IMG/VR virus record: IMGVR_UViG_3300022200_000039
Coordinates: 1-64,000 of that record
Length of the DNA stretch: 64,000 nt
Source of the DNA: a virus
Strand: one strand, 5' to 3'
Below the pieces are notes generated by a model. That model ran no database searches. It was not told the DNA's origin and saw only the letters and a list, made by a program, of their open reading frames with translations. Position numbers and translations under genes: made by a program. Position 1 is the stretch's first letter; every line of letters starts with the position of its first letter. This document shows, one piece after another, positions 1-52,838 of this stretch.

Positions 1-2443
1 TTACTTCTTTGTTTTCTTCATAATAAGAAATTCGCTTTTCGATTTCTATCAACTCACTTTCAAATCTAGCTACACTTGTTTTGTTGCGCTCTCTTTCTAA
101 CTTGGCTGTAGAAATCTCAGCCTGCAAACTACGAGTAAGATTTACAATATTTTCGTATTGTTCAATTCGTTTGTTAATTGTACCAAGATCGTAGTTTGCA
201 AATCTTAAGTTTGTTTGTTGTAATTCAGATTCAACAGAACCAGAAGACGCAACAGCAACGTGAGCATCTTTAATAAATCTACAAGTAGGAAAAGAATTAC
301 CACAAGGTATGCTGTTTAATAGTTTTTTCTTTTTATCGATATCTTGCAAATCACTCATTAAAGAATTTATTTTATCTTTTAATTTATTTGCTTCTTCTTT
401 TTCGACGTGGATCGAGCTAATGTCGATCATCGAAACTAAAGCATTTGCTTTGGCTAGCTTTTCTTCTTTAAGTCCAATAGCACTTGACGCTTCTGTAATC
501 TTTTCATTTACGCAAGACAAAAGGTATTTTGTTTCATTTTGCTTATTGACAAGTTGGGCAACATCGATAAAATCTGTTGGAGCAGATGCTATTTGATTTT
601 TTAAATTGTTCAACTTTTCGTTAAGAACAGAAATTTTAATTTTCAACTCTTCGCACTTTGATTGATTTACCTCAGAGTCTTGCTTTGCCTTAGCTAACCT
701 TTCTTCTGTTTCAGAAATCTCAACATCAAAATCTCTATCAGAGCATTTGTTAAGAAGAACTTTTGTATCACGCGAATCTTCTTTTGCTAATTTGAACTTT
801 TGATCAAAAAACTCAAGATCCAAAAACTTTGCAATAATCTCTTTGCGCTTTGTTGAACCTTCATCGACAAAAGAAAATGCGCCGTGCTGAGAGGCAAGAG
901 AAGACATAGAAAAATCTTCTATGGTGCCAAAGTGCTTGCGAATATTTGCGTCGGTTTGAGCCCGCGTGGTGCCGTTGAGAGAGGTAGTTTCTCCTGTGGT
1001 CTTGTCGTGCTCTTCAAAGTTTAGCTCAGTCTTTGCTTCTGTTATTTCTTCTTTCTTAACGCGACGAGTGTACTTAACAGATTGTCTGGTAATATAATAA
1101 ACTTTATCTCCGATCTCAATCTCTAGTTCTCCGCGCCCATAGTCTCTATTTTGATTAATAACATTTAAATTCTTGCGCTCATTTTTCGAAGTCGTGTTGA
1201 AAAGTGTATAAAGCGCTGCGTCAATAACAGAACTTTTGCCACTAAAGTTCTTGCCAAAAATTCCGATAATCCCAGAGAGACTGTCAAAATTAATGTTGTT
1301 ATCTTCTCCATAATTAAAAAGATTGTCCCATTTAAAGTTGTTGATTTTCCAGTTGACATTTCTTGAAACCTCTTCGTTGTCTTCTACAATTTTATTATAC
1401 TTACGATTTAGTTCGTAAATAGACTCAAGAGTATCTTCATCGATCTGATAATCCTTAAGGTACTCTGAAATAAGTTCTTCTTGTACGTTTATGTCGCGTA
1501 GGTTCTCGCAATACAAATCTCCAGCAATTTCTTCAACGGAACCACGAGAACCAGCAGCACGGTTGAGAAAAGTAACACTTTCAGGCTTGTATTTATGTTT
1601 TGCAACATCAAGCGCTTTACGCATAACGTCGAGAGGCAAATTATTTTCACTTACCAAACGCAAACGAGCGCCACTTGGGACGCTTGTTTTTCTTGGTATC
1701 TTGCCAGTTGGAGTTAGCGTAATAGTAAAAAATGGCTTTGGATTATTAAAAACAATATGATCAACATTCCAATCATTTTTAGATTTTATGTTCCAAAGCA
1801 ACAAGCCTTTATCGTTGCTCTCTCCGTGATTTTGCTGAACGGTAGAGCCAGCATACCAAACTCGTTTTGTTTTATCCAGCGCCTGACAACGATGAATGTC
1901 GCCAAGCATAGCAAAATCAAAATCGTTAAAAATAGATATATCGTCTTCGCCGTTTACCATTTCCCAATCAGCATCGGTTTTACAACCGCTGATAGAGCCA
2001 TGATAAAGCGCTATGTTGATTTTTGATGAATCTGTTGGTTGCGTCCAATTATCTCTATCAAAAACAGAAAGTACATTTAAACATAAATCATTATTTAAAT
2101 GTACTTCACCGGAGTTTTTAAGCAAATGAAGATGAGGAAGATTTAATGCCTCAACGATTGGAGTAATCGCATCTTGGCGGTTACTGTTCTTAAGATTGCC
2201 ATCGTGGTTACCAAGAATAATATAAGTTGGCGCAATTAAAGAAAGATTGCGAAAAAAATCAGAGCACATATCAACAAACTCAGGAGAAATTTGAGTTTTA
2301 GTATGTGCGATATCTCCACAGTGAACAATATAATCTACTTTATTTTCTCTAAGAGAATCGTAAATTTGTTCAAATATTTCTTTGTATTCTTGATGGTATT
2401 TTAAATTTTTAATATGAGTATCAGCAATATGAGCGATCTTCAT
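1..2443 (-). CDS. Fused SbcD-SbcC (gp47-gp46-like) recombination nuclease, C-terminus beyond window
   Basis: A single open frame of 814 codons runs from an ATG at 2443 to the window edge; I checked every codon and found no stop. The N-terminal part is a calcineurin-type phosphoesterase of the Mre11/SbcD/gp47 family, with D8 and H10 (ADTH), D44 (CGDIAH) and G78-N-H-D81, then a GDIH motif. Around residues 394-404 a Rad50/SbcC/gp46 Walker A follows (GIFGKNFSGKS), then a long heptad-rich coiled coil with a CX6C pair at about 714-721, where a zinc hook would sit. In T4 and in bacteria these are two subunits (gp47/gp46, SbcD/SbcC) that resect DNA ends for recombination. Here they form one polypeptide. 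The start overlaps the previous gene by 4 nt (ATGA), and both should be read from the promoter at 2721-2749. Walker B and signature motifs would lie outside the window. Confidence 0.93.
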   Translation of the reverse strand, partial: MKIAHIADTHIKNLKYHQEYKEIFEQIYDSLRENKVDYIVHCGDIAHTKTQISPEFVDMCSDFFRNLSLIAPTYIILGNHDGNLKNSNRQDAITPIVEALNLPHLHLLKNSGEVHLNNDLCLNVLSVFDRDNWTQPTDSSKINIALYHGSISGCKTDADWEMVNGEDDISIFNDFDFAMLGDIHRCQALDKTKRVWYAGSTVQQNHGESNDKGLLLWNIKSKNDWNVDHIVFNNPKPFFTITLTPTGKIPRKTSVPSGARLRLVSENNLPLDVMRKALDVAKHKYKPESVTFLNRAAGSRGSVEEIAGDLYCENLRDINVQEELISEYLKDYQIDEDTLESIYELNRKYNKIVEDNEEVSRNVNWKINNFKWDNLFNYGEDNNINFDSLSGIIGIFGKNFSGKSSVIDAALYTLFNTTSKNERKNLNVINQNRDYGRGELEIEIGDKVYYITRQSVKYTRRVKKEEITEAKTELNFEEHDKTTGETTSLNGTTRAQTDANIRKHFGTIEDFSMSSLASQHGAFSFVDEGSTKRKEIIAKFLDLEFFDQKFKLAKEDSRDTKVLLNKCSDRDFDVEISETEERLAKAKQDSEVNQSKCEELKIKISVLNEKLNNLKNQIASAPTDFIDVAQLVNKQNETKYLLSCVNEKITEASSAIGLKEEKLAKANALVSMIDISSIHVEKEEANKLKDKINSLMSDLQDIDKKKKLLNSIPCGNSFPTCRFIKDAHVAVASSGSVESELQQTNLRFANYDLGTINKRIEQYENIVNLTRSLQAEISTAKLERERNKTSVARFESELIEIEKRISYYEENKEV

Positions 2444-2703
2444 TCAGCACCCTGGACATTATCTCCGATAAGCTTCTGGTTTAAATAGTCAGCATTGTTT
2501 TCAACCAGCATCTCTACATAAGCATCATATGTTTCTTCTTCTATATCCTGTAGAGGGACCGAAATAACATTTGGCTTAACGCTTTCAATACGCGAACGCT
2601 CGTATACAATATCAAAAACTAATCCAGCAGCCGCATGTCCCATGAAAAAAGAGATAACAACAACAGCAAAATAAAACACTCTATCAAAAAGAAGACTTTT
2701 CAT
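2440..2703 (-). CDS. Small single-pass membrane protein, unknown function
   Basis: This 87-residue protein has one hydrophobic N-terminal helix (about residues 8-32) followed by an acidic soluble tail, so it is probably membrane-anchored. I recognise no family. The ATG is preceded by a good ribosome binding site (GGAGGTAAGAG) and, further upstream, by a sigma70-like promoter. Its stop codon overlaps the start of the SbcD-SbcC fusion gene, so translation of the two is probably coupled. It may tether or modulate something in the recombination operon, but that is guesswork from position alone. Confidence 0.7.
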   Translation of the reverse strand: MKSLLFDRVFYFAVVVISFFMGHAAAGLVFDIVYERSRIESVKPNVISVPLQDIEEETYDAYVEMLVENNADYLNQKLIGDNVQGAE

Positions 2704-4493: not shown

Positions 4494-5429
4494 TTATATT
4501 GCTAATAACAAGTTTCTCAATAAATAGTCGTCATTATCAATAAAAGTAGCTTGTTTTTTACGTTGGTTAAAAACCTCTCTTGGCATCTCACCAACGTCTT
4601 CATAGCCTGTAGTATCTATTTTATATAGTTCAATATCATATTGAAGAAGCGTCTTAATAATCTTTTGCTCTTTTTTGCTTGCATCAGCATCGAGCGCCAG
4701 ATAGACGGGCGTGTCGTTAAGAACGATCTTTCGTACAAGTTTGGAGTTTGCTTGGATTGTTGAACCCAATAAAGGTATAGCGTTTCCTGCGATAATAGCA
4801 TCAAATACTCCTTCGGTTATTGTTAGGTCTTTGTTCCAGTTTACATATAGTTCATTAAAAATAATGTTTTTAGATGCTCTTGGGTTTTTATATCGATAAG
4901 AAGAGTTATTGTAAGTTCTACCAACAAAATAGTTAATATCCCCATCATTATCAAATGACGGAATAATAATTCTTTTGTAGTATTCTCCAGTATTGCAATA
5001 GCCAATCTTCCAGCGCAAAATATCTGCATCCGATACACCACGCTTGCGAAGATAATTGTACGCCGGATAAGCAACTGTAGGCAGTTTTTTACTAGCTAAT
5101 GTGTCGAACTCTGGTGGTAACATTAGCTTTTGTTTTACTTCCGGCTCTGGCTCGCTAAACAAATCCGAAAAGCGATCAAGATCTATACGATTAGTAATTT
5201 GATCCCATTTCTGTAGTAAAGTAAATGAGCCAAATCTACGTATAATACGACGGATGTTACGACCACGGTAATCGCAAATCCAGCATTTAAAAAAGTTTTT
5301 GTCTATATTGATAGACAGTTTATTTTTATGGTGGTTGCACACCGGGCATCCAAAAAGATATTCCGCTCCGTTCTGCTGATAATATCCTAATGTTTGGTGC
5401 AGTATGCTGATAGCTTCTGTTTTATTCAC
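4494..5429 (-). CDS. DNA primase with zinc finger and TOPRIM domain
   Basis: This 311-residue protein has the layout of a small DnaG/gp61-type primase, which makes RNA primers for lagging-strand synthesis. The N-terminal zinc-binding domain carries C28/C31 (CPVC) and C49/C52 (CWIC). A TOPRIM core follows, with the acidic motif ITEGVFDA and the second motif LALDADASKKE. Its length is close to T4 gp61 (about 340). The first in-frame codon is GTG; there is no in-frame ATG before the zinc finger and no clear SD sequence. A weak sigma70-like promoter would place transcription start almost on this GTG, so the message could be leaderless. It sits with RuvC-like and SbcCD-like genes, forming a replication and recombination block. 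Confidence 0.9.
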   Translation of the reverse strand: MNKTEAISILHQTLGYYQQNGAEYLFGCPVCNHHKNKLSINIDKNFFKCWICDYRGRNIRRIIRRFGSFTLLQKWDQITNRIDLDRFSDLFSEPEPEVKQKLMLPPEFDTLASKKLPTVAYPAYNYLRKRGVSDADILRWKIGYCNTGEYYKRIIIPSFDNDGDINYFVGRTYNNSSYRYKNPRASKNIIFNELYVNWNKDLTITEGVFDAIIAGNAIPLLGSTIQANSKLVRKIVLNDTPVYLALDADASKKEQKIIKTLLQYDIELYKIDTTGYEDVGEMPREVFNQRKKQATFIDNDDYLLRNLLLAI

Positions 5430-5435
5430 AAATAC

Positions 5436-5464
5436 AAGATAACATGACGTAAGCTATTAATCAA
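5436..5464 (-). promoter_or_regulatory. Weak sigma70-like promoter before the primase
   Basis: On the minus strand TTGATT (5464-5459) and TATCTT (5441-5436) are 17 bases apart. The -10 element ends only 6 nt before the primase GTG codon, so a transcript from it would have essentially no leader. Each hexamer matches the consensus imperfectly, hence the modest confidence. Confidence 0.35.
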
Positions 5465-5894
5465 CCCTCTTTTGCAAAGTTCCAGACAGTAAATCCATTA
5501 TTGGTAAGACAACCCCCCAACTTTTATTTTGGTTTCTCATGTGGTGATTCCAGTGCCACCAAAAAACTTTTTTAGCTACTGCTGGATATCTATGGACAAA
5601 GTTGTGAATTAAAATAAATAAAACACCGTAAGTAACAAGAGCAGAATAAAAGAAAGGACTGAAAAAAGCAATTGGCAGATGAGCAAGCAAAATAAATGGT
5701 ATACCAATCATTTCGACTTTTGATATTTTAGAATCAAAAAAATCGTTATGTCTTGCAGTCAAGTGGTGCTCTCGCAAGTGAAATGAAAATAATGAATCTT
5801 TCTTTTTGCCAAATTCGTGAAATAAATAACGATGAACTGCATACTCAAATGTGTTAGCATACAAGATGCCAAGAGCAAAAAGAACTATTTCCAT
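5457..5894 (-). CDS. Fatty acid hydroxylase/sterol desaturase-family membrane protein
   Basis: This 145-residue integral membrane protein has the histidine clusters of the di-iron FA_hydroxylase superfamily: HRYLFH near residue 21, HLREHH near 39 followed by another His, HNFVH near 97, and HWNHH near 113, ending in the family-typical segment WGVVLPIMDLLSGT. Hydrophobic segments lie between the clusters. Members hydroxylate fatty acyl chains, sterols or carotenoids at the membrane. It is short, like bacterial CrtZ-type or minimal hydroxylases. A strong AGGAGA lies before the ATG. The phage also encodes an Mpo1-like protein (49142-49444), an enzyme that in yeast acts on 2-hydroxy fatty acids, which hints that the substrate is an acyl chain. 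Lying among replication genes, it is best read as an auxiliary metabolic gene. Confidence 0.82.
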   Translation of the reverse strand: MEIVLFALGILYANTFEYAVHRYLFHEFGKKKDSLFSFHLREHHLTARHNDFFDSKISKVEMIGIPFILLAHLPIAFFSPFFYSALVTYGVLFILIHNFVHRYPAVAKKVFWWHWNHHMRNQNKSWGVVLPIMDLLSGTLQKRVD

Positions 5895-5904
5895 TATTTA
5901 TCTC

Positions 5905-6420
5905 CTATTGTTTGGTTAGCTCGTACCCTGCCTTAGCAATTACGATTGCATCTGCTCTGTCAAATGATTCTGGTTTTGGATTACCAGATTTAGTGTATTC
6001 AACACTAAAAGACTCTTCTGTTTCTAAAAGATGCTCTAAAACAACTAATTTTGCTTTTTCGCCTTTTGGAACTTTAATGTCGCAAAGTTTCCGTGCTTGA
6101 CTCGCACCTATATATTCAGGCTGCATTTCAAAAATCTCATACACCATCCAAGATACGATACCGTTGAATCTTTGTAATGATGCCATTGTTTTTGCAGATG
6201 AGCCTCCAGAATTAAAAAATGTAAAAGGTTGCTCGATGTAGATTCTATCAAATTTATCATATTGTTCGTAAATGTCAAGAATTTTACTTTTTATATGAAT
6301 TGACTTAGCAAAAACATCTTTGTATTTACGCAGATCTATTGAGTCATAACTGATTAGCTTACCGTTATTTACAATCGCAAAACCAGTTATGCTTGTGCTT
6401 ATATCTATACCCAAAATCAT
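5905..6420 (-). CDS. RuvC-like Holliday junction resolvase
   Basis: A 171-residue RNase H-fold nuclease of the RuvC/poxvirus-A22 type. The first acidic residue is in ILGIDISTSITGFA (D5), the second in IYIEQP, and the last in FDRADAIVIA near the C-terminus, the spacing expected for the catalytic carboxylates. Such enzymes cut Holliday junctions or branched DNA before packaging; in T4 this job is done by the unrelated gp49. The start overlaps the end of the preceding structural gene by 4 nt, so it may also be expressed with late genes. The fold and active-site pattern are clear, but the exact substrate preference is not. Confidence 0.85.
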   Translation of the reverse strand: MILGIDISTSITGFAIVNNGKLISYDSIDLRKYKDVFAKSIHIKSKILDIYEQYDKFDRIYIEQPFTFFNSGGSSAKTMASLQRFNGIVSWMVYEIFEMQPEYIGASQARKLCDIKVPKGEKAKLVVLEHLLETEESFSVEYTKSGNPKPESFDRADAIVIAKAGYELTKQ

Positions 6421-41517: not shown

Positions 41518-42245
41518 ACTATAGTAACGCCTTTTTTCTGTACCACAATTGTAGCACATGTATTACCGAATTTTATAGATTTATGAATATTTTTAGATTT
41601 TACATATTCGGCAACCATAGCAGCAATAAAAGTATCACCAGCACCCGATGTGTCTTTGATTTCTACTTTTGGTACTGGATAAATCATATTATTATACTTT
41701 GCCCCATCTGATCCCATTGTTACTATTAGGGTGTTTAATATTTCTTCATCTAATATGTGTTTTGTTTTTTCATATTCATCAAGGTTAATCTTAATATAAT
41801 TTATGCTTTTACACCACGAGCCTAAAATCTTTTTTGTATCTAAAAATACACAATCATGATTTTCTCCAATAAACTTTATATCTTCTTCCGTAAGAAAACC
41901 TTTGTTATAATCAGAAATTAGAATAACCGCATACTGAGAAAAATCTATTTTCTTAATATCACATTTATCATAAGAATTATCATTTTTATCAAGTCTCATA
42001 AACATATGATTTGTCTTTTCATCAATAAATCTAGTTTTTGTAATATTTTTAAAATTATTGTTTGTGTGTAGAGTGCATTCAACTTCTAGAGATTGTAGAT
42101 TTTGATAAACATTATAAGCCATTCCTCCATTTTCAATTTTATACAAAGGATTAAAAACAGGTACGGGGGCTTCAGGACACAACCTTTTACATTCTCCGTA
42201 CATAAATATATCTAAACAACTCTCTCCTATAACAAGAACTGTCAT
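41514..42245 (-). CDS. PfkB-family sugar kinase, HldE N-terminal-like
   Basis: 243 residues from the ATG at 42245, supported by AAAGGATAT and overlap with the previous stop. Ribokinase/PfkB fold: VLVIGESCLDIFMYGEC at the N-terminus, GGMAYNV, and the catalytic C-terminal DTSGAGDTFIAAMVAEY with the invariant GAGD. Shorter than HldE kinase domains (about 315), but the pattern is complete. With the adjacent nucleotidyltransferase it reconstitutes a two-gene HldE. It likely phosphorylates a heptose phosphate at C1. Confidence 0.85.
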   Translation of the reverse strand: MTVLVIGESCLDIFMYGECKRLCPEAPVPVFNPLYKIENGGMAYNVYQNLQSLEVECTLHTNNNFKNITKTRFIDEKTNHMFMRLDKNDNSYDKCDIKKIDFSQYAVILISDYNKGFLTEEDIKFIGENHDCVFLDTKKILGSWCKSINYIKINLDEYEKTKHILDEEILNTLIVTMGSDGAKYNNMIYPVPKVEIKDTSGAGDTFIAAMVAEYVKSKNIHKSIKFGNTCATIVVQKKGVTIV

Positions 42246-43408
42246 TATATATCCTTTATAACGTTGCAAATAAATTCTATCTCTTCTTCGGTCAATTCGG
42301 GGTAATTAGGCACAAAAAATCCTCTAGAATGAATTGCATCGCTTTGAAAATCAGCGAATTCATTATACAAATCAATCCAAAATGGATGTCTTCCTAAATT
42401 TCCAGCACTAAAAATTCTTGTCTCGATACCGTTTTCAACCAAACGACTTACTATTTCTTTTCTATGTTGCGTACTGTTAGCTAAGGCACCAAAAGAAATA
42501 GATACCGGGTACTCAACTCCCCAATCTTGAAACTCAACATAGCCTTGAAGCTTTTTAGCATACAGTAAATGATTTCTATTTCTGTTTTTAGATGCCCACT
42601 CTGCTTTTTTGATTTGTCTAATTCCCAAAAAAGCCTGCAAGTCTGTTGACCTTAAATTGTATCCGGGTACAAAAAATGTAAAAGGAGAATGAAAATCGTC
42701 AATATTCCTTTCTTTCATCATGTCACTATAAGTTTCCTCATCCAGATCTTTAGCCCAACCGTGACTACGCAACATTAAAAGCATATCATAAAGTTTCTTA
42801 TCATTGACGTTTACCATACCACCTTCAATTGTGGAAAGCTGATGTCCAAAATAAAATGAAAAAGAAGACATATCACCGATAGTACCAACCATTGTGCCAT
42901 CACTATATCTAGCCCCAAGTGCTGCACAAGCGTCCTCTAGAAGTACAAAACCATATTTTTCTTTCAGTTTCAACAACCTTTCTTTATGATGAGGAACACC
43001 CAATACTTGTACAAATATAACAGCATCAGGTCTTTCGGTTTCACAAATTTGCTCCAACTGATCCAGATCAATACCAAAAGTTTTTGGGTCCGCACCACAC
43101 ATAATTGGGTGTAATCCTAGCTGAATAGCTGGTGAAATCGTTGTAACCCATCCAACCGATGGAACAACTATTTTCTTATTTGGTATTAGACCACATTGAA
43201 CTGCTGTGGCTATCATTAAAAGATTAGCCGAAGACCCAGAATTATTGAATACTGAATATTTTGTACCGATATATTCAGCCCAATCTTTTTCTACCTGTAA
43301 AGTCAAATCTCCTTTTGTTAGTCTAGGATAACTTTTTAGCCAATTGCACAGCGCATCGACATCTTCATCATTAATTGTTTCTTTAGCCAACGGATATCTT
43401 ATTTTCAT
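42245..43408 (-). CDS. DegT-family PLP sugar dehydratase with His in place of the Schiff-base Lys
   Basis: 387 residues, DegT/DnrJ/EryC1 fold type I. The PLP phosphate loop is around NNSGSSANLL (55-64), and the PLP-binding Asp is in LLEDACAALGA (159). Where aminotransferases have the Schiff-base Lys, this protein has His189 in SFYFGHQLSTIEGGM. That substitution is the signature of the 3-dehydratases ColD and DdhC/E1, which remove the C3 hydroxyl of a 4-keto-6-deoxy sugar nucleotide. So the cassette likely makes a 3,6-dideoxy or derived sugar rather than an amino sugar. AAGGAGAT precedes the ATG. The neighbouring RmlC-like and SDR genes fit. Confidence 0.88.
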   Translation of the reverse strand: MKIRYPLAKETINDEDVDALCNWLKSYPRLTKGDLTLQVEKDWAEYIGTKYSVFNNSGSSANLLMIATAVQCGLIPNKKIVVPSVGWVTTISPAIQLGLHPIMCGADPKTFGIDLDQLEQICETERPDAVIFVQVLGVPHHKERLLKLKEKYGFVLLEDACAALGARYSDGTMVGTIGDMSSFSFYFGHQLSTIEGGMVNVNDKKLYDMLLMLRSHGWAKDLDEETYSDMMKERNIDDFHSPFTFFVPGYNLRSTDLQAFLGIRQIKKAEWASKNRNRNHLLYAKKLQGYVEFQDWGVEYPVSISFGALANSTQHRKEIVSRLVENGIETRIFSAGNLGRHPFWIDLYNEFADFQSDAIHSRGFFVPNYPELTEEEIEFICNVIKDI

Positions 43409-43932
43409 TTAATCTCCTTTAAAAATTTAGATTTTTTGTCTCGTTCTGATAAAACCGGCAATGCCTTTATTAAAGGCCATTTAATGTCTAATATTGGTTC
43501 GTCCCATCTTAGAGAAAATTGGTTTTCTGGAGAAACATAGTTTTCTGACCATTTATAATAGAACAAGCAATCTTCAGTTAAACAGTAGTGTCCATTCAAG
43601 AAATTTTTAGGAATAAAAACAGCAAAATTGCTATCTTCGTCCATCTCTATCTCAAATTTTTGTAAATATTGTTCACTTTGTTTATCATAATTTACAATAG
43701 CTAAATATATTTTTCCTTTAAGGCAGTATATCAATTTATCATTTATTGAATCTCCGTGCAAGCCCCTTAATACATTTTTTTTTGATTTTGTCAATTTATC
43801 AATTTTAAAATCTGGAAATTGGTTTACATCAAATAAATTTGTGATATTTCCTCTATTGTCTGAGAAGTTTTCTAAATATATTTTATACACTCCATTTAAT
43901 GGAAGCTCTTCTTTTACAAACAACATTTTCAT
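43405..43932 (-). CDS. RmlC-like sugar nucleotide 3,5-epimerase
   Basis: 175 residues, cupin-type RmlC fold. Visible are DNRGNITNLFDV, the catalytic-His segment NVLRGLHGD, and the C-terminal active-site and dimer region PENQFSLRWDEPILDIKWP, nearly a textbook RmlC ending. Members epimerise 4-keto-6-deoxy hexoses at C3 and/or C5. It overlaps the DegT-family gene by 4 nt, so the two enzymes probably act on the same intermediate. GGAGTAC lies before the ATG. Confidence 0.85.
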   Translation of the reverse strand: MKMLFVKEELPLNGVYKIYLENFSDNRGNITNLFDVNQFPDFKIDKLTKSKKNVLRGLHGDSINDKLIYCLKGKIYLAIVNYDKQSEQYLQKFEIEMDEDSNFAVFIPKNFLNGHYCLTEDCLFYYKWSENYVSPENQFSLRWDEPILDIKWPLIKALPVLSERDKKSKFLKEIK

Positions 43933-43957
43933 ACAATATTGTACTCCACAAATCAGT

Positions 43958-44746
43958 TCATTTGTTATTATTTTGCATATTATTATATGCTTTTATCATT
44001 CGATCTGCAACTATATTTAAATATAGATTTTTGGCTTGTTGCGCGACTAAATCATAATAGTACAAATTTTCAGGGTTTTTCATACCATCCATTTCCATAT
44101 TGTTATAAGATCCCCCAAATCCTGATGCTCCATCGGTGGGATTCCGACTGAAAAAATCGGGGACTGTTCTCCACAAATCTATCCCGTAAGACTCATACAT
44201 TAAGATATGCAATAATGTTTTCCAATTATCTCCATTACATTGCCAACCGTAATTTTGTAAAACTTCAATACATCTTACTGAAAAGCATGGCAAACTAACA
44301 CCTTCATTGTGTTTCCATACTTCCATGATTTGCGGTTCTCTCCAGCGACCTTTATAAAGCTCTACTCTTGGACGGCGGGGACCAACAAAACAATATTCAT
44401 CTTTTATTGATAAGATATCATCAATAAAACCTTTTTTTATAAATGTGAAATCATCAGCACAAAGTAGAACAAATGTTGATTTTTGGTTTCTTTGTGAAAA
44501 CAAATAAAAATGATCTAAATGAAAACCATGACGACCTTCGCCTCTTGACCAAACAAAAGTTTTAACACTAAAAGGAAATTTATTAAAATATTCTTGAGGA
44601 GGGCGTAAATCATCATCAGAATCATATTTTATCAAAACCTCACAATTTTCCGCATTTCCTCCACATTGCTGTAAACTTGTCAGTAGTTGATCTATATTGC
44701 TATCTTTATTACCTTTTACTCTTGAAGTCAATATCAATGTTAACAC
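43958..44746 (-). CDS. Glycosyltransferase-like protein
   Basis: 262 residues starting at GTG, supported by GAGAGG 6 nt upstream. The N-terminus LTLILTSRVKG and the later LLCADDFTFIKKGFIDD (with a D-D motif) look like a GT-A nucleotide-sugar-binding fold, and the residues RGEGRHG and NPTDGASGFG are unusual. I take it to be a GT2-like glycosyltransferase, but the family match is weaker than for the others. It lies between another glycosyltransferase and the RmlC-like gene in the glycan cassette. Confidence 0.65.
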   Translation of the reverse strand: MLTLILTSRVKGNKDSNIDQLLTSLQQCGGNAENCEVLIKYDSDDDLRPPQEYFNKFPFSVKTFVWSRGEGRHGFHLDHFYLFSQRNQKSTFVLLCADDFTFIKKGFIDDILSIKDEYCFVGPRRPRVELYKGRWREPQIMEVWKHNEGVSLPCFSVRCIEVLQNYGWQCNGDNWKTLLHILMYESYGIDLWRTVPDFFSRNPTDGASGFGGSYNNMEMDGMKNPENLYYYDLVAQQAKNLYLNIVADRMIKAYNNMQNNNK

Positions 44747-44756
44747 AAAATACCTC

Positions 44757-45527
44757 TCAAATTTCTAAATAAAATTTCTTCATATCTTCTAGATTATCAA
44801 AAACACTGTTTTTGTCATAGTAGTTGTTATTCAAATTACCAACCAGATTGTATAGAACAATCATATCGTAAACATCATAAGTTGTTTTAGCGTTTCTCCC
44901 AGCCCAATCCCACAAAGTAATTTCTCTGCATTCTATTGTTGGTTCCCCCATGTGACCAAGATAAATTGACATATAGTTGTCTGCTACATGGTGTAGGAAA
45001 TGAGGATGAAATATTTTTTCTCCAAACAACTCATAAGTTTTTCTGTCCATTGTTGGGAATTTCATAATATAATTTCTATTATGTTTTCTTTCGGCTTTGG
45101 TTATTGGGTGTATTACACTTGGCGGAACTAATTCGGCTGGTAATTTATAGTAATGCCCGTTATTTTTAACCGTAACTGATAAGCTAGTAACTTTATATAT
45201 TCTATCATAATATAAAGGAGATTGTAAGAAATTAATAACAGAAAACAAATTTTTTGACGGCAAATAATCATCTACCAAAACACAAAGATAATCTCCATTT
45301 GCCTGAGAAGCAAGAAAATTAATTGGGCGTATTGATCCTTCGTTGTCAGTATCTTTAAAATATTTAATATTTTTACTATCAATACCAGAATTGGTAGAAG
45401 AAACTAAAATTTCATAATCAAAACCCAAGCTGTCCATACGATTAATAGTTAATATTGTTTTATCTAAATATTTTTCGTGTGACCTGTTGGTTGGTATCAA
45501 AAAAGAAATATCTTTTTTACTTTTCAT
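44757..45527 (-). CDS. GT2-like glycosyltransferase
   Basis: 256 residues from the ATG at 45527 (GGTGAT upstream; its start overlaps the end of the preceding gene). It starts KKDISFLIPTNRSHEKYLDK, a classic GT-A beta strand, followed by FASQ/GDYLCVLVDDYLPSKN with the DxD-like D-D pair that binds the metal-nucleotide. The C-terminal half has a Trp/His-rich region. It likely transfers one of the unusual sugars made by the cassette onto a surface glycan. Confidence 0.75.
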   Translation of the reverse strand: MKSKKDISFLIPTNRSHEKYLDKTILTINRMDSLGFDYEILVSSTNSGIDSKNIKYFKDTDNEGSIRPINFLASQANGDYLCVLVDDYLPSKNLFSVINFLQSPLYYDRIYKVTSLSVTVKNNGHYYKLPAELVPPSVIHPITKAERKHNRNYIMKFPTMDRKTYELFGEKIFHPHFLHHVADNYMSIYLGHMGEPTIECREITLWDWAGRNAKTTYDVYDMIVLYNLVGNLNNNYYDKNSVFDNLEDMKKFYLEI

Positions 45528-46056
45528 TATAATAATCACCCCACTCAACTAAAATGGTACTTTTTCCATCTGTCCTGTGATATGCTTTATGATATGCTGG
45601 AAAAATATCTTCTGGCTCATCTAGTCTTATAACTTCTACTGTTGTCAACATATTTCTAAATGCATCGGTAAAGTCTCCAGTGTGTTGTATTTGCGGATTT
45701 AAAGGATTTTCAGACCCAATGCCAACCCGAATAATTGCTTTTGGAGCATATTCTCCGTGTGTATAAATTGAGTATTTGTCCAAATGATTAACCAATTGAT
45801 TTACTGCTAAAAGAAGAAAATTCCAACGCGGGTATATACTAATCGGAACAGTTCCAGCTATGCTTAAGCCATTTGTGATTCCCATTTGCATTTCTTCATT
45901 AACAGGCATTTCCAACAATTTATTTCTTGGAACTTCTTTCAAAGTATTTGTCATTGCCGTTCCTTTATATTCAACCGCTTGACCCAAAAATAAAGTATTA
46001 TTTTGTTCTCCCAAATAAGACATAGCACGGCTTAATTCATCAAAATATTTTCCCAT
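45517..46056 (-). CDS. TPP enzyme beta-like subunit (E1-beta/transketolase pyrimidine-binding domain)
   Basis: 179 residues. The region MPVNEEMQMGITNGLSIAG with a conserved Glu is the pyrimidine-binding segment of E1-beta/transketolase, where Glu activates the aminopyrimidine of thiamine diphosphate. PISIYPRWNFLLLAVNQLVNH follows. It is about half the length of a normal E1-beta, without the C-terminal domain. It must pair with the alpha-like subunit encoded 12 nt upstream. AAGGAGAA precedes the ATG. Split two-gene TPP enzymes of this kind occur in sugar-modification clusters; the substrate is unknown. Confidence 0.8.
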   Translation of the reverse strand: MGKYFDELSRAMSYLGEQNNTLFLGQAVEYKGTAMTNTLKEVPRNKLLEMPVNEEMQMGITNGLSIAGTVPISIYPRWNFLLLAVNQLVNHLDKYSIYTHGEYAPKAIIRVGIGSENPLNPQIQHTGDFTDAFRNMLTTVEVIRLDEPEDIFPAYHKAYHRTDGKSTILVEWGDYYNEK

Positions 46057-46068
46057 ATTGTTTTCTCC

Positions 46069-46680
46069 TTAAAATTGAACTCTGATTCCAGCACCAGCAT
46101 GAGGATATTTGTCTAATTTATATTTATAATAAGTAACATAATCGTCATTAATACCTTCATAAGTTAGCTTTTCCATATTCCATGTTGCTCTTGTGTCGGT
46201 GCAAACTGATTTTCCATTATCTTCAATTATAAAGTGTATCGGCAATTTGTGATTACGAGCATATTTTATACACTCATGGGCAGCGCCAGTCTCGGAAGTC
46301 ATTTCTCCCATAAAACAATATACTTTATTTTTTCCGCCTCGACGTTTAATATCAATGGCTATGCCTAATGAAACAGACAATTGTCCAGTTACAATTCCAG
46401 AACAAAGAATTTTGTGTTCTTTAAAACTTAAAGATATCGATCTCCCTTCTAAGATCGCTTCCTTCAATTGTTTTGGTGGAACACCTTTTAAAAGACACTG
46501 ATAATGGCTTCTCCAAGAACATAAAACCCAATCTTCTTTTCCTATTTTATGTTTTTTAAAAACATCAATTATTTGTTCTTCATTACCATTATATAAATGA
46601 ACAGGAGCTTTAATCATGGCTGAATTAAAACAATCTGCTATATCATTTTCGAATTCTATCAATTCTTCTTTTGTTAACAT
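46069..46680 (-). CDS. TPP enzyme alpha-like subunit (E1-alpha-type)
   Basis: 203 residues. It contains a TPP-binding motif of the form G-E-M-T-S-E-T-G-x-x-H-E (in place of G-D-G) and ends in IEDNG about 30 residues later, as in E1-alpha subunits. The N-terminal part (VLCSWRSHYQCLLKGVPP) resembles the E1-alpha region that precedes the motif. Shorter than the usual 320 or so. The Asp-to-Glu change at the metal-binding position deserves notice but is conservative. With the beta-like gene it should form a heteromer performing two-carbon or decarboxylative chemistry in sugar synthesis. Confidence 0.82.
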   Translation of the reverse strand: MLTKEELIEFENDIADCFNSAMIKAPVHLYNGNEEQIIDVFKKHKIGKEDWVLCSWRSHYQCLLKGVPPKQLKEAILEGRSISLSFKEHKILCSGIVTGQLSVSLGIAIDIKRRGGKNKVYCFMGEMTSETGAAHECIKYARNHKLPIHFIIEDNGKSVCTDTRATWNMEKLTYEGINDDYVTYYKYKLDKYPHAGAGIRVQF

Positions 46681-48195
46681 TTAATCACCTAATATTTTCC
46701 TCTTTAATTTATGTTCGCACATTTTCACAATTCCATCGTGGGTTTCTTGACCGAATTTTTGCTTAATGTAACTTAGGTATTTTGGATTTTGATAATACTC
46801 GTTAAAAGCATTATCTCTAAATTTTACTACTTCTGAAGAAGTAATATATTTTGTACTTAAAGGAAGTATATCATAGGAATGCTGTGAATATCCACTATAA
46901 GTTTCTGGTAAGGGTAAATTATTTTTGATAGCATCCAAATATAGTCGTGAACCGGGGTATGCCATAGAACAATAAAAATTGGCAAATTCACAATTTAAGT
47001 CTTTTGCTAGTTCTAAAGTTTCTCTCATTGTGCTGTGATCATCTTCCGGTAGACCAAAAATAAAATTCCCTATTACATTAATTCCAGAATCTTGTATTTC
47101 TTTAACTAAATCAGAAATCTTTACATCTGTAAACTTTCCTTTAACAACATCTTTTCTAACTACACCGTTACCAGACTCGATACCAAGAGCTAACCATTCT
47201 ATACCAGCTTTCTTTAGAGTGTCTAGGTAAGATTTTTTAACTGTATCAATTCTAGCATATGCCCAAATATTAAAATCATATTTTCTGTCTATTATTAGAT
47301 TACACAATTTTAAAAAATGATCTTGATTTAAAACAAACATTTCGTCAGCAATTTTGATATTTCTAATCCCCATTTGATGTATCTTATCAAATTCATTTAT
47401 AGCATATTCTGGATTCCAAAATCTAAATTTGTTTCTTTCATAATTCCAGTTCTCAACATTATTATTTCCAAACGGGGCGTTAATGCAACAAAAACTACAT
47501 CTAAATGGACAACCCAAACTAGTATAAAGAGAGGCAAAAGGCATTGTTTGATTTTTGTTAGACATCCCATGCCAATTTGAAGTTCTATATTTTTCCATTG
47601 GCAACAAATCCCAAGCCATACCCGGAAGTTCTGTTTGCATCTCTTCTTGTGTTATTAATGGGGCAGGTTTAGTAAAACAAATTTTATCTCCATCCCTATA
47701 CCATAAACCGGGAACCTTACTTAGCTGATAAGGATCCGATAAATTATCAACTTCCATTAATGCTGTTAATGTTCTGGGTCCTTCTCCCTGACAAACAAAA
47801 TCAGTTTTTTCGTCTTGCATTGTTTTTCTAGAAACAGCAGACGGATAAAGTCCTGTTATTAGTACTTTTCTTTCTGGATTGTTTTGTTTTAATATTTCTA
47901 AGCAATTGTGGACACCTAGCATATTCTGAGCCGATGCTGATGGCTGCTGTCCATAGACAACAAACACTACTAACTTTGGATCAAAATCTTCTATTTTTAA
48001 ATAACTTTCGACTGGACTTAGCTGCTCAGCCTCACAATCTAATATGGCTACATTTTCATATCCTTTCGAGCGGACATGATTTGCCAACAAAGCAGCCCAT
48101 ATTGGTGGCTCTATAGCTGAGTATTTTTTACTCAGACTCTGATAAATTTGTTTTGAAGCATTCGGATGCACAAATAGAATGTCCAATTTATTCAT
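46681..48195 (-). CDS. B12-binding-domain radical SAM protein
   Basis: 504 residues from the ATG at 48195, chosen because AAGGAA lies 7 nt before it while an earlier ATG lies within the SDR gene. N-terminal Rossmann-like B12-binding domain (LDILFVHPNAS, AALLANHVRSKGYENVAILD). Then a radical SAM barrel with the cluster motif CPFRCSFCC (CxxxCxxC) and the downstream LALGIESGN and NFIFGLPED. Such enzymes often methylate or rearrange unactivated carbons. In this cassette a methyl-branched sugar or lipid modification is plausible. The B12 might be bound by fold without the DxHxxG motif, which I do not see. Confidence 0.85.
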   Translation of the reverse strand: MNKLDILFVHPNASKQIYQSLSKKYSAIEPPIWAALLANHVRSKGYENVAILDCEAEQLSPVESYLKIEDFDPKLVVFVVYGQQPSASAQNMLGVHNCLEILKQNNPERKVLITGLYPSAVSRKTMQDEKTDFVCQGEGPRTLTALMEVDNLSDPYQLSKVPGLWYRDGDKICFTKPAPLITQEEMQTELPGMAWDLLPMEKYRTSNWHGMSNKNQTMPFASLYTSLGCPFRCSFCCINAPFGNNNVENWNYERNKFRFWNPEYAINEFDKIHQMGIRNIKIADEMFVLNQDHFLKLCNLIIDRKYDFNIWAYARIDTVKKSYLDTLKKAGIEWLALGIESGNGVVRKDVVKGKFTDVKISDLVKEIQDSGINVIGNFIFGLPEDDHSTMRETLELAKDLNCEFANFYCSMAYPGSRLYLDAIKNNLPLPETYSGYSQHSYDILPLSTKYITSSEVVKFRDNAFNEYYQNPKYLSYIKQKFGQETHDGIVKMCEHKLKRKILGD

Positions 48196-48206
48196 TTTTT
48201 TATTCC

Positions 48207-49142
48207 TTAATAATTCGCATACCACGGTGATTCTATAATAGAATAAGCTTTTATCAATTGTATAATACCATCATCCAAATCATATTTGCAGTCAAATCCT
48301 TTATTATAAATCTTCTGACTACTAACTTCATAATCACGAACATCTGGATCAGTATTTATTTCCGCTTTTATAATTTGTAAAGGTATGTGCTCTTGAATTT
48401 TTTTAGCTAGCTGTAGCTTATTCATATTTATTCCATCGTGACCCACATTATATGTCTCATTTTTACAATTATCCCAATTATCAATTACAAATTTAAAAGA
48501 TCTACATGCATCTTGTAAGTGCAAATAATTTCTCATAAATTCACATTCGTATAAAACTAATACGCCTTCTCTCAGTGCCTTAAGAACAAAATTATTTACC
48601 AATAGATCTGTTCTCATTCTAGAACCGGGTCCGAATACAGTTGCAAATCTAAAAGTGACATGATTTTCTATTTCTCGATAAGCCTTTTCTGCCTGAACTT
48701 TTGTTGTTCCATATAGAGAAACTGGATTAAGAGGAGATTCTTCTGTACACATGGAGCCATCTTTGGAGGTTCCATAACCAGAATTAGTGCAAGGATAAAT
48801 CACCATTTGATCTTTTGATTTGTTATCGGCAATCCATTGATTTACCTCATAATTTATTTCTCTTGCTCCTCGTTTGTCTTTTTCGCACAACGGGAAGCCG
48901 ACTAAAGCTGCCAAGGGTATAATAACATCTGCTTGTGCCATATGCTTTCGTAAAAAATTTATATTTCTTACATCCCCTTTTTCAAAATTAAAATTTGAAT
49001 CAACTGTATATCTTAACAGAGACGTAGCATCATACATAAGATTATCTATACAAGTAACTTGATGACCGTCTCTTAGTAAATGTCCCGTCAATTCGCTACC
49101 GATATATCCAGCGCCACCTGTAATCAATATTTTTTTACTCAT
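48207..49142 (-). CDS. NAD-dependent epimerase/dehydratase (extended SDR)
   Basis: 311 residues. The N-terminal glycine motif ITGGAGYIGSELTGHLL and the catalytic YGTTKVQAEKAY (Y-x-x-x-K) define an extended short-chain dehydrogenase; VFGPGSRMRTD and YNVGHDG follow the usual order. These act on nucleotide sugars as 4-epimerases, 4,6-dehydratases or reductases. GGAGT precedes the ATG. It is followed by the radical SAM gene and probably feeds or finishes the sugar made by the cassette. Confidence 0.88.
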   Translation of the reverse strand: MSKKILITGGAGYIGSELTGHLLRDGHQVTCIDNLMYDATSLLRYTVDSNFNFEKGDVRNINFLRKHMAQADVIIPLAALVGFPLCEKDKRGAREINYEVNQWIADNKSKDQMVIYPCTNSGYGTSKDGSMCTEESPLNPVSLYGTTKVQAEKAYREIENHVTFRFATVFGPGSRMRTDLLVNNFVLKALREGVLVLYECEFMRNYLHLQDACRSFKFVIDNWDNCKNETYNVGHDGINMNKLQLAKKIQEHIPLQIIKAEINTDPDVRDYEVSSQKIYNKGFDCKYDLDDGIIQLIKAYSIIESPWYANY

Positions 49143-49444
49143 TAAAACTCCAATCTTCCAATTAAAATGTCTTTAAACATAATCCAATCACACAATTTTG
49201 CTTTTATGGGGTGACTAAACGCGGCTGGTTTATTTTTTTCAAAAAAGTAATGCCCAGACCAAGCAAAAGGGTATACTACAAAAGGTGCTAAAAACAACAA
49301 TAACCAAAGTTTAAGGTATACAACCATAGCAATAAATATTATTGTTGCAATCTGTCCTAGTATGTGTGTTCTTCTGGTCCATCTATTTTGATGTAAGGTT
49401 AGATAATATTCATAATATTCACTAAGACTCATATCTTTATTCAT
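49142..49444 (-). CDS. DUF962/Mpo1-like 2-hydroxy fatty acid dioxygenase-family membrane protein
   Basis: 100 residues from an ATG at 49444 that overlaps the end of the 141-residue gene; the longer frame to 49510 lies inside that gene. Pattern: YEYYLTLHQNRWTRRTHILG (conserved His, Asn, Arg and His), two hydrophobic helices, then FAWSGHYFFEKNKPAAFSHP with the family's S-G-H-F-x-x-E-x-N-x-P-A-x-F-x-H-P motif. Yeast Mpo1, of this family, is an Fe(II) dioxygenase that shortens 2-hydroxy fatty acids by one carbon. Its presence here with a FA_hydroxylase-family protein is notable. Membrane-located. Confidence 0.85.
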   Translation of the reverse strand: MNKDMSLSEYYEYYLTLHQNRWTRRTHILGQIATIIFIAMVVYLKLWLLLFLAPFVVYPFAWSGHYFFEKNKPAAFSHPIKAKLCDWIMFKDILIGRLEF

Positions 49445-49862
49445 TCCAACTAATCTCCCAATCTTTGAATTCTGCTGCCAGACAATCGATTTTATAATCT
49501 TTCCTGCCACCTACAATTTCTTGAATTTTATTTTTAGCAGTATTTCGAATTCCATTTAATCCGTGCGTCAACTCTAGATTGTTGCCGTCTTTAATACCTT
49601 TACGGTAATTCGACTCGTTATGCCAAATGTGTAAATTCATTTGTGAAAGTACTACGATAGCTCTAATCGTTTTGGCATCAACTACCATATGTCCTTCTGA
49701 AGATTGTTTTTCTTCTAAAATCATCTGGATATCATACAAGATATCTGAAATTTCTTGTGCGTATTCATCTTTATGCTCTGAAATAAAGACTTCTTTTAAC
49801 TGTGCGATACTAAGTCTGTCAACTAGTTCCGACAGTGTTGGGAGATATTTCCTATTTGTCAT
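49437..49862 (-). CDS. Conserved-looking helical protein, unknown; first gene of the AT-rich cassette
   Basis: 141 residues, mostly helical (YLPTLSELVDRLSIAQLKEV, then QMILEEKQ and a long helix with NLHIWHNESNYRKGIKDGNN). AAAGGAACAC precedes the ATG, and a strong sigma70-like promoter lies 30-60 nt upstream, so this is the first gene read from it. I recognise no catalytic signature. The DUF962 gene overlaps its end. Confidence 0.72.
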   Translation of the reverse strand: MTNRKYLPTLSELVDRLSIAQLKEVFISEHKDEYAQEISDILYDIQMILEEKQSSEGHMVVDAKTIRAIVVLSQMNLHIWHNESNYRKGIKDGNNLELTHGLNGIRNTAKNKIQEIVGGRKDYKIDCLAAEFKDWEISWNE

Positions 49863-49893
49863 TTGGGTGTTCCTTTTTTAATAGAATAAACAT

Positions 49894-49922
49894 ATTATAG
49901 CGCATATTAAACTGCATTTCAA
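49894..49922 (-). promoter_or_regulatory. Strong sigma70-like promoter of the glycan cassette
   Basis: On the minus strand -35 TTGAAA (49922-49917) and -10 TATAAT (49899-49894, perfect consensus) are spaced by 17 bases. It lies in the 89-nt gap between the 543-residue glycosyltransferase gene and the 141-residue gene, with a small AT-rich palindrome (AATAATnATTATT type) just upstream. It would drive the cassette early in infection or from host sigma70. Confidence 0.8.
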
Positions 49923-49951
49923 TATAATAATCATTATTCTTGTTATCACAT

Positions 49952-51583
49952 TTATTTTGTATTTAAAAATTGTGAAAAATAGTTTTTATAAAGTTCATAG
50001 TTTTTTCCAAAAATATGACCATTTTTAAAAAATATCTGCGCTTCTTCTTTACGTTGCTCCAGATTATTTTGCGATTGCGATCTGCCGCCTTCCATATATA
50101 AACCAACAACTTGTTCAACTTTAGAGAATATGCAGTTCTCGTTAACAGCACGAAGCCATAAATCCCAATCATCTGAAAAATCTAGATTTACTTCATCAAA
50201 AAAACCAACTTTTTCATGAAGTCTTTTCCTCCACATTGGCATTGGCCCCGGTAAACATTTTATCATATTTTCTTTTGAAAATGGTAAAATGGAATGTTCA
50301 GATAATTTTGTTGATTTGGTGTTTTCTACTGTTTCGTTTTTTTTGTCCGTAACTAAGCAATCCCCATACACCAACTCTATTTTATCACTGGATGTTAATC
50401 TATTATATAGAATTTCTATACCATCAATACTTTTTCTATCATCTATCATAGCCCAAACAACAAAAGGGCAATTACTCTTCATGATTGCTATATTGTGTCC
50501 AATTGTGGGCTTAAAATTTTTACTATATTGATAATAATGTATATTATTAAATTTTTTCATGTATTTTTTAACTATTTCTTTTTCTCTGCCGGGTGAAGCA
50601 GAATCAACTAGAATTAGTTCACACTGATCGAAAATTGTTTGTTTGGTTATGTTATCTAAATAATCTTCTATGTATTCTTCTGCTTTATGAAATGTTGTTA
50701 TAATGCTAATCTTTTTATCAGTTTTTGTGATTCTAGGTTTATCTATTTCCTCTAATACTAAATTTAATATATAATCTCTTCTATCGTTCATATAATCTAT
50801 TAATTTTTCGCCTTTTAGCTTAAACCACGGTTCATGACTAGCACCAACCATTTGATTTAAAATAACACCGACTCCCATCATTCTAGCTTCACACACAATT
50901 CTAGATAATGTTTCCGGTGATTTAGGGAAAAAAATCAATTTTTTGTTATTACTAAGTTTATGTAAAAAATTGATATAATTTGAGTCTTCTATTAAATCAT
51001 ATTCTAAATTATTTTTATTACAATAATCAATAGCACCTACTGTGTTTTTATGGGGTATTTGACTTTTCAAAATAGAAACTCTATCTTTTTTTTGGTTTTG
51101 AGATAAAGCTTTCAATTTAGTTAATACTTCCAAAGACCACAAATTTCCATTTACGGATAAAACATTGTCTAACTCAAGATTTTTTGTGATTATATTTTTG
51201 TGATAATTTGTTTGGCAAAAGACTTTTTTAGCATTTTTGTAAAAGAAATAATTTCTAAAATTATCATTTGAAGCTTTGAAGTCTTTAAAAAATATTGGAT
51301 TTCTTGTATTTAAATATTTATGATCATGTTCGTATATTATGTATTCGCACTCATAGGTAATTTTTTCTCTAACATCATATGAAAGATTACAAAAATTAGA
51401 TATTATATAAAAACAATCCAGATTGTTTTGAATTATTTTCTTAGTAACCAAATGAGATTGAAAACATTCAACTTTCCTACCACTATGTCTTAGAAGTTTA
51501 ATTAATTCATGGTCGTTTAATTCGCCACCACCAACAATGTGGTTTACGAAAAAATCAGCTATATAAATTATTTTTCTATTCAT
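49952..51583 (-). CDS. Two-domain glycosyltransferase (GT4-like N-terminal, GT2 C-terminal)
   Basis: 543 residues. The first 290 resemble a GT-B protein (HIVGGGELNDHELIKLLR, YIIYEHDHKYL, LSRIVCEARMMGVGVILNQMV), like mannosyl- or glucosyltransferases. The rest is a GT2 domain: ISIITTFHKAEEYIEDYL, VDSASPGREKEIVKKYM, WAMIDDRKS and VYGDCLVTD. The fusion would let one chain add two sugars or hold an acceptor. Its codons are very AT-rich, unlike the GT4 gene just upstream, and the composition break falls at the gene boundary. Confidence 0.8.
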   Translation of the reverse strand: MNRKIIYIADFFVNHIVGGGELNDHELIKLLRHSGRKVECFQSHLVTKKIIQNNLDCFYIISNFCNLSYDVREKITYECEYIIYEHDHKYLNTRNPIFFKDFKASNDNFRNYFFYKNAKKVFCQTNYHKNIITKNLELDNVLSVNGNLWSLEVLTKLKALSQNQKKDRVSILKSQIPHKNTVGAIDYCNKNNLEYDLIEDSNYINFLHKLSNNKKLIFFPKSPETLSRIVCEARMMGVGVILNQMVGASHEPWFKLKGEKLIDYMNDRRDYILNLVLEEIDKPRITKTDKKISIITTFHKAEEYIEDYLDNITKQTIFDQCELILVDSASPGREKEIVKKYMKKFNNIHYYQYSKNFKPTIGHNIAIMKSNCPFVVWAMIDDRKSIDGIEILYNRLTSSDKIELVYGDCLVTDKKNETVENTKSTKLSEHSILPFSKENMIKCLPGPMPMWRKRLHEKVGFFDEVNLDFSDDWDLWLRAVNENCIFSKVEQVVGLYMEGGRSQSQNNLEQRKEEAQIFFKNGHIFGKNYELYKNYFSQFLNTK

Positions 51584-52838
51584 ATTCTTTTATAATATCC
51601 GATATTTCATTAAACCAATCATTGACATTTTCTTGATTATTATAAAATAAAATAATAAACCTCTCATACATCTTTTCGGCAGAGAAAGTCTCGTGTAGGC
51701 GCTTTACATTTTGCTCCAAAGCAATCATTTGTGTACCACGAGTCTCTTCGTTAGTCATTTGTTCATAACAAAGTCTCATTTGTTGCTTTGCAGACTGCTC
51801 ACGCGGATAAGCCCACATAGAGTCTTTGATCAAAACATTCTCCCAAACAACCTCCTGCTGAATTGGCTGTAAGTCAAATGCGACGTTATAAAAATGTTGC
51901 TTACCTTGCTCATCAACCAAAAAATCTAACTGCCCTGACCAGCCTGTAGCGACCACAGGAAGCCCAGAATAGGCTGCTTCAAAGATTGGAAGACCAAAAC
52001 CCTCACCATGAGGTAAAGCAAGGAAAGCATCTACAGAAGAATCTTTATAAAGCGCATGCATTTCTTTATCGGTCATATCGCCATGAAGAAGATAAACTTT
52101 GCATTTGTGTTCTGGAAGGTTTGCTAAAAACGATTTAAGATCTTTAAGAATCTTGTTTCTATCCATTAAGCTATTTTTAACAATGTTGGTCTTAAGAATT
52201 AAGCCAACGTCTTCGTTATCTGCGAATTCCTCAACAAACCACTTAAGAGTATTTGGAAGGTTTTTGCGAGGTCCAAACTGAGCAACAGATAGAAAATTAA
52301 AGCTGGTGGAAAGATTTAGATTTAAATCTGGAAGGTTTTCAAAAACTTTAACTGGATAATTCACAGCCTCAACTGGAGTTTGAAGTCTGTACTGAAATTC
52401 TTGCTGACCGTTGGTTGCAATAGCCACAGTGTCTTCAAAGATATTTTTAGAATGGTTAGAGACAACAATAATTTTATCTACAACCTCATTTCCTTTTTGA
52501 AGCCAGACGGGAGCCACTTTAGTTGTTTCAATTCCAGCCGTGTAGCCAATATTGATAGGAGCCAGTTTTTCCCATTCGTTTGGAATCGTAACTTGAACTG
52601 ACATATCAAAAGTGCCACCGCTTTGAATATAAGCAATGGTCTTTTCAATCGTCATATCGATCCATACTCGCTCTTCATCCATGTCAGTCAGCCAAGACGT
52701 GGCACCCCATTGAAGAGGCTGAATGAAAACTTCAAATAAGTCCTCTCTTGAGCGAAGAGAGCGTAGCGCAAATCTTGCTTGCTCTCCATAGCCAGAACGA
52801 GTTAGTAGTGGTCCTTTTAGTAAAACCTTTTTTCTCAC
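51576..52838 (-). CDS. GT4 family glycosyltransferase
   Basis: 420 residues from a GTG at 52838 (GGAGG just upstream; GTGA overlaps the preceding stop). The C-terminal donor-binding region is clear: LLHGDMTDKEMHALYKDS, FLALPHGEGFGLPIFEAAYSGLPVVATGWSG, with the conserved E-x(7)-E arrangement. The N-terminal SGYGEQARFALRSL is typical of GT-B acceptor domains. It follows another GT4 gene and probably acts in the same pathway. Confidence 0.88.
   Translation of the reverse strand: MRKKVLLKGPLLTRSGYGEQARFALRSLRSREDLFEVFIQPLQWGATSWLTDMDEERVWIDMTIEKTIAYIQSGGTFDMSVQVTIPNEWEKLAPINIGYTAGIETTKVAPVWLQKGNEVVDKIIVVSNHSKNIFEDTVAIATNGQQEFQYRLQTPVEAVNYPVKVFENLPDLNLNLSTSFNFLSVAQFGPRKNLPNTLKWFVEEFADNEDVGLILKTNIVKNSLMDRNKILKDLKSFLANLPEHKCKVYLLHGDMTDKEMHALYKDSSVDAFLALPHGEGFGLPIFEAAYSGLPVVATGWSGQLDFLVDEQGKQHFYNVAFDLQPIQQEVVWENVLIKDSMWAYPREQSAKQQMRLCYEQMTNEETRGTQMIALEQNVKRLHETFSAEKMYERFIILFYNNQENVNDWFNEISDIIKEYE

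Follow-up and report, generated by a model that had tools for sequence, protein, structure and literature searches.

We have analysed a 64,000-nucleotide stretch of viral DNA (the window), bases 1-64000 of a virus record that is 66,811 bp long and given as linear, and confirm that the gene at its very start encodes a real SbcD-SbcC (Mre11-Rad50) fusion of a marine phage, cut only by the end of the contig. Fusions of this type have been known since 2011, and it is the hook at the tip of the coiled coil, with six residues between its two cysteines, that looks to be the new part. Judged on its sequence, this CX6C hook truly departs from the definition of Rad50, and among relatives the type of hook has changed repeatedly.

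The fusion gene occupies positions 1..2443 of the minus strand, on which all of its features and the upstream frame, primase and resolvase described below also lie. From the ATG at 2443 the open reading frame (2..2443) runs through both domains for 814 codons without a stop, as the earlier note on this DNA had read it, and ends only at the start of the contig; the chance of a stop-free frame of this length at 35% GC is about 1e-26. Pfam places Metallophos at residues 1-185 (2.9e-13) and AAA_23 at 374-593 (3e-7), and PHROGs places an SbcD-like family at 1-378 (3e-30) and an SbcC-like family at 302-809 (2.6e-27). The window copy is without its last ~221 residues, with the signature motif, Walker B, D-loop and H-loop, and these are known from orthologues alone; the missing C-terminus was sought at the other end of the 66,811-bp record and is not there. 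A 67% identical orthologue (locus L002, 5001..8108; identity over the shared part) is complete in one frame of 1035 residues, and therefore no frameshift error is needed to explain the fusion. The Rad50 C-lobe motifs of orthologues read SGAEK, ILDEPGTALD and SHLD and would lie beyond the contig end in the window. Together with the reading frame and the Pfam and PHROGs matches, this complete homologue upholds the proposal of a single-chain SbcD-SbcC protein.

The Rad50 hook is defined by a highly conserved CXXC (PMC9569753). In place of this canonical zinc-hook motif, alignment and sequence give C714-x6-C721 (PCGNSFPTC, 281..304) in the window protein, between an ascending coiled-coil arm (residues 544-712, 308..814) and a descending arm that is followed from residue 722 to the contig end at residue 814 (2..280). 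The earlier note had singled out an unusual CX6C at this position, and it has proved a stronger lead than the fusion itself. An AlphaFold2 model of the complete orthologue, run with 67 sequences (mean pLDDT 83.5), has arms of ~167 residues each (544-710 and 722-887) flanking a loop at 711-721; with a pTM of 0.48 and a pLDDT near 63 at the hook, its domain placement and hook geometry are approximate. Among the matches listed, 146 sequences fall into the classes CX6C (111), CX7C (11), CX2C (21), CXC (2) and CX3C (1), so that the first two together make up 122, and 17 of the 21 CX2C hooks read [YF]DPxCxxC, the other four differing. None of these 146 hooks has fewer than two cysteines, and metal binding by CX6C is putative. 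Five hooks of two-gene phages (Kyanoviridae and Herelleviridae) are all CPxC. A search for a structure of a CX6C hook found none, and a 32-residue hook query against 50,697 cultured-phage records, weakly sensitive because it is short, gave no CX6C match.

Hook type switches repeatedly on a phylogeny of the heads. On a heads-only tree of 123 rows, six hook classes need 21 changes, or 16 when CX6C and CX7C are merged, and the well-supported branches alone force eight changes for [YF]DPxCxxC. A single origin of [YF]DPxCxxC is rejected by the AU test (p = 6e-5) on a subset that was chosen after the switched pairs had been seen. The closest switched pair among the matches listed, L012 (CX6C) and L030 (CX2C), is 90.6% identical and comes from one shared metagenome; in the heads its DNA identity lies mostly at 87-97%, with a low of 83% before the arms, but it is 63-64% over residues 661-780, where the same-hook pair L030/L021 retains 81-82%. 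For pairs with 85-92% head identity, median identities of the arms near the hook are 0.38 and 0.22 when the hook is switched versus 0.62 and 0.56 when it is not, these pairs being non-independent. Relatives of about 30% identity also carry both types (L160 has CX6C; Microcystis phage Mel-JY01 and L163 have CX2C). The simplest account of these sequence patterns is that two old hook types have been exchanged by recombination; repeated parallel change of hook type may instead have taken place. Zinc supply was considered as a cause of hook type and is disfavoured, since both types share one metagenome in seven cases, including L012/L030.

Exchange by recombination raises the possibility, which we put forward tentatively, that the tip is a swappable specificity cassette, with hook types recombined between phages and each pairing with its own kind only. 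The old types would be CX6C/CX7C (PCGxxFPxC) and CX2C ([YW]D..C..C), with rarer CXXC, CX3C and CXC forms besides, and the partners in exchange would be phages with nearly identical heads present in one sample. Hook type might then set which chains dimerise, separating the phage nuclease from that of a co-infecting relative or of the host. Yeast Rad50 still works when its hook is replaced by an SMC hinge (PMC6969161), and exchange of the hook is thus mechanically tolerable. Hook switching appears to be undescribed; no account of it or of CX6C hooks was found in the literature searched, which is not proof of absence.

The nuclease half of the protein is a calcineurin-like metallophosphoesterase (Mre11/SbcD) domain at residues 1-232 (1748..2443), assigned by Pfam, by the AlphaFold2 model and by a Foldseek match of that model to S. 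aureus SbcD (7dog_A, aligned over 340 columns). Alignment and sequence place motif I at D8-x-H10 (2414..2422), motif II at CGD 42-44 with D44 (2312..2320), motif III at GNHD 78-81 (2201..2212) and motif IV at ALYHG with H148 (1997..2011); DTH 8-10, GD 43-44 and GNHD 78-81 thus stand where the earlier note had them, as does the Walker A. Motif V is GDIH 181-184 (1892..1903): where GHxH has its first His, this protein has Asp, a change shared with Mimivirus R555 (PMC3175470). Throughout the family, the metal motifs DxH, GD, GNHD/E and H are all present and GHxH is GDIH.

With Asp standing in for one of the metal-ligand His residues, the preferred metal or the activity could differ, and this change is the ground for supposing that the fused chain is processed, or that its nuclease is weakened and its role is mostly that of a structural tether. 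Among the matches listed, D182 stands at the equivalent of P. furiosus Mre11 His206 in all 146 sequences that have the column. The other metal ligands are invariant, however: in the alignment of the matches listed D8, H10, D44, N79, H80, H148, D182 and H184, and in the Walker A G402 and K403, do not vary wherever the column is present. Furthermore, Asp can bind metal, Mimivirus R555 shares the change (PMC3175470) and the nuclease domain is among the best-conserved parts of the protein. We therefore consider a processed chain or weakened nuclease improbable and retain an active single-chain nuclease as the preferred reading.

Between nuclease and ATPase the Mre11 hairpin is retained. A capping-domain region of approximate boundaries (residues 235-300, 1544..1741; modelled strands and a helix at 238-301) is followed by a predicted Rad50-binding helix-loop-helix (318-358, 1370..1492; modelled helices 318-332 and 336-356, pLDDT blocks 79-93), and the fusion joint (359-363, 1355..1369) then leads into the Rad50/SbcC ATPase N-lobe (364-540, 824..1354; Pfam AAA_23 and AlphaFold2), which contains Walker A GKNFSGKS at 397-404 (1232..1255). 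Of the Rad50/SbcC ATPase, Walker A and the N-lobe are thus found in the window and the C-lobe motifs in orthologues. The model of the orthologue has the same order of phosphoesterase, capping region, two-helix hairpin (318-356) and Rad50 strand 1 from residue 364, together with a C-lobe. Foldseek matches the model to Chaetomium Mre11-Rad50-Nbs1 (7zr1, 3.4e-20) and to the E. coli SbcCD head (7yzp_C, 1.4e-13), its full-length matches being R555-like giant-virus fusions (Tupanvirus, 4.8e-56), and the family profile matches solved Rad50 C-lobes at 3e-17. In 144 of the 146 sequences among the matches listed, the length from the hairpin up to the first strand of Rad50 comes to exactly 55 residues, and R361-N362 in the joint does not vary across 68 aligned rows, Mel-JY01 and a 735-kb phage among them. 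Such a fixed length argues that nuclease-ATPase geometry matters, and the suggestion in the earlier note that fusion constrains this geometry is plausible and gains support from it.

An 87-residue reading frame upstream of the fusion (2440..2703) has a stop that overlaps the fusion start (ATGA), an arrangement in the sequence that suggests translational coupling. A DnaG-like primase (4494..5429) and a RuvC-like Holliday junction resolvase (5905..6420) have homologues near the fusion in 96 and 87 of 100 eligible loci, respectively. Ten contigs of relatives, 183-204 kb long, each hold one fusion with no second copy, and all have a RecA-family gene. Between primase and resolvase the window carries a 145-residue fatty-acid-hydroxylase-like gene (5457-5894), with a homologue near the fusion in one of 100 eligible loci. 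Further off is a sugar/glycan block (42245-54121) with a DegT aminotransferase, a nucleotide-sugar epimerase and glycosyltransferases. In other loci, a 380-residue gene downstream of the fusion (L002 9010-10149; L003 2809-3957) has a GGGGGTGSS motif, putatively tubulin/FtsZ-like, and a homologue in 45 of 138 eligible loci.

According to the model that we favour, the protein is very probably a phage-encoded single-chain Mre11-Rad50 (SbcDC) nuclease of M2R2-like form that processes ends in phage recombination and replication. Two chains would make the equivalent of M2R2, with their N-terminal nuclease domains paired. The hairpin at 318-358 would sit on the root of the coiled coil, its own or its partner's, the short joint of fixed length would lead into the Rad50 N-lobe, and ATP would join both heads. 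The tips would dimerise through the two cysteines of each CX6C, most likely sharing one putative metal ion. Such an assembly may process and tether double-strand ends and palindromic or hairpin DNA in recombination-dependent replication, its partners there probably being a phage RecA-type recombinase, the primase and the RuvC-like resolvase; by analogy, this context would fit replication of the T4 type.

Hairpins and DNA ends are cut by enzymes of the SbcCD kind, and there are related SMC-like systems with a role in immunity. A protein for counter-defence or for degradation of host DNA, rather than for phage recombination and replication, could be imagined on these grounds. However, the conserved linkage to primase and RuvC-like genes and the presence of a RecA homologue in each of the ten long contigs fit replication and recombination, for which T4 gp46/47 is a precedent (PMC3175470), and we regard a role in defence as still less likely than a weakened nuclease.

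Two alignment-based scans of IMG/VR confirmed at least 488 of 599 and at least 583 of 600 candidate stretches as relatives. One reading frame spans both domains in 143 of 148 loci among the matches listed, down to about 45% identity, a count biased towards fused relatives because these loci are the best 80 per scan for a fused query. The remaining loci are mostly cut by a contig end, distant, or a known two-gene pair (L009). The earlier note had allowed that homologues might always be two separate genes; this is not so, as most of the relatives fetched are fused. Its proposed search for other fused phage proteins found them both in these IMG/VR relatives and in the cultured Microcystis phage Mel-JY01, Tenacibaculum phages pT24 and PTm1, Chryseobacterium phage MA9V-1 and Sphingomonas phage PAU, where they are annotated merely as 'AAA domain', 'DNA repair' or 'metallo-phosphoesterase' and the fusion goes unremarked. 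In Listeria phage LMTA-57 (NC_047871.1, 59521-62550) the usual sbcD and sbcC genes form one annotated frame, with a one-base length difference from relatives, either a sequencing error or a new fusion, but for the window protein an assembly or sequencing artefact (two normal genes joined by a frameshift or an overlooked stop) is refuted, to near certainty, by the fused frame of the relatives, cultured phages included, and by their constant joint.

Yoshida, Claverie and Ogata (2011; PMC3175470) described thirteen Mre11/Rad50 fusions, Mimivirus R555 and twelve more, a set that spans Bacillus phage 0305phi8-36, plasmids and eukaryotes. The same authors inferred abundant marine relatives to be viral, many of them probably phage, and saw that these share scaffolds with primases; they also argued for a position of the C-terminus of Mre11 close to the N-terminus of Rad50, and noted the same Asp for P. 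furiosus His206 (PMC3175470). The window protein agrees on these points (motif V Asp, primase and hairpin). The fusion itself is a further member of an already known kind, and the novelty that the earlier note implied for it is not borne out. When 15 fused viral forms are placed in a tree with six split phage pairs and E. coli SbcCD, all the fused ones make one clade (support 99/97), and a single old fusion would be enough for this sample. Absent from it are the eukaryotic and plasmid fusions, for which Yoshida and co-workers proposed several origins (PMC3175470), and the branch of E. coli is long. A search for plasmid relatives gave just weak one-domain matches.

A few loci depart from the intact gene. 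In L006 (4944-9169; LR756508.1, a 484-kb phage) the fusion is split after GDIHKRQ by a 305-residue reading frame and resumes at 6584. An intron was considered here and set aside, as there is no Rfam match and the insert is a reading frame with a TnsA-like endonuclease domain; it has the look of a mobile endonuclease that inserted where the gene is highly conserved. L116 (7650-7859) and L150 (7696-7902) carry a partial second copy of the last ~60 fusion codons directly downstream of the intact gene, which looks as if left over from replacement of the 3' end by recombination. A 698-residue relative, 59% identical (L159, 5956-8049; CP070664.1), is found in the assembly of a WOR-3 bacterium, on a chromosome of 2.8 Mb, and would be either an integrated phage or a misassembly.

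The family was inferred in 2011 from short marine reads; our work contributes phage sequences of full length and shows how abundant it is. Should the hook result hold, the tip is a dimerisation module that is exchangeable in nature, as it is by design in yeast (PMC6969161). CXXC would then not be the sole route to a Rad50 hook, and why phages keep switching becomes a testable question. With its fixed-length joint, the fusion is also a 1:1 construct that structural studies could use as it stands.

Among known systems, E. coli SbcCD shares the head fold by Foldseek and differs in being made of two subunits, with a GHxH motif and a CXXC hook. The T4-type gp47/gp46 and Herelleviridae SbcD/SbcC pairs have the same two activities in neighbouring genes, but are two genes in a separate clade, with CPxC hooks in the five compared, which are from Kyanoviridae and Herelleviridae. 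The fused chains of cultured jumbo phages pT24/PTm1, MA9V-1 and PAU (the 'metallo-phosphoesterase' proteins, 1301-1326 residues) belong to the same fused clade, although they are distant (pT24 is 22.5% identical) and longer, with CX2C hooks. Mel-JY01 (WWT39521, 1066 residues) likewise has a fused chain, adjoining a DNA primase gene and with the R361-N362 joint, but is about 30% identical and has a CX2C hook (YDPKCKHC). Fusions of the Mimivirus R555 type are alike in domain order, in the hairpin before Rad50, in the His-to-Asp change of motif V, in their marine viral distribution and in the phage primases nearby on metagenomic scaffolds (PMC3175470). R555 itself is a protein of 1351 residues from a giant virus, whereas the window family is of phage, with chains of ~1035 residues, shorter arms and mostly CX6C hooks.
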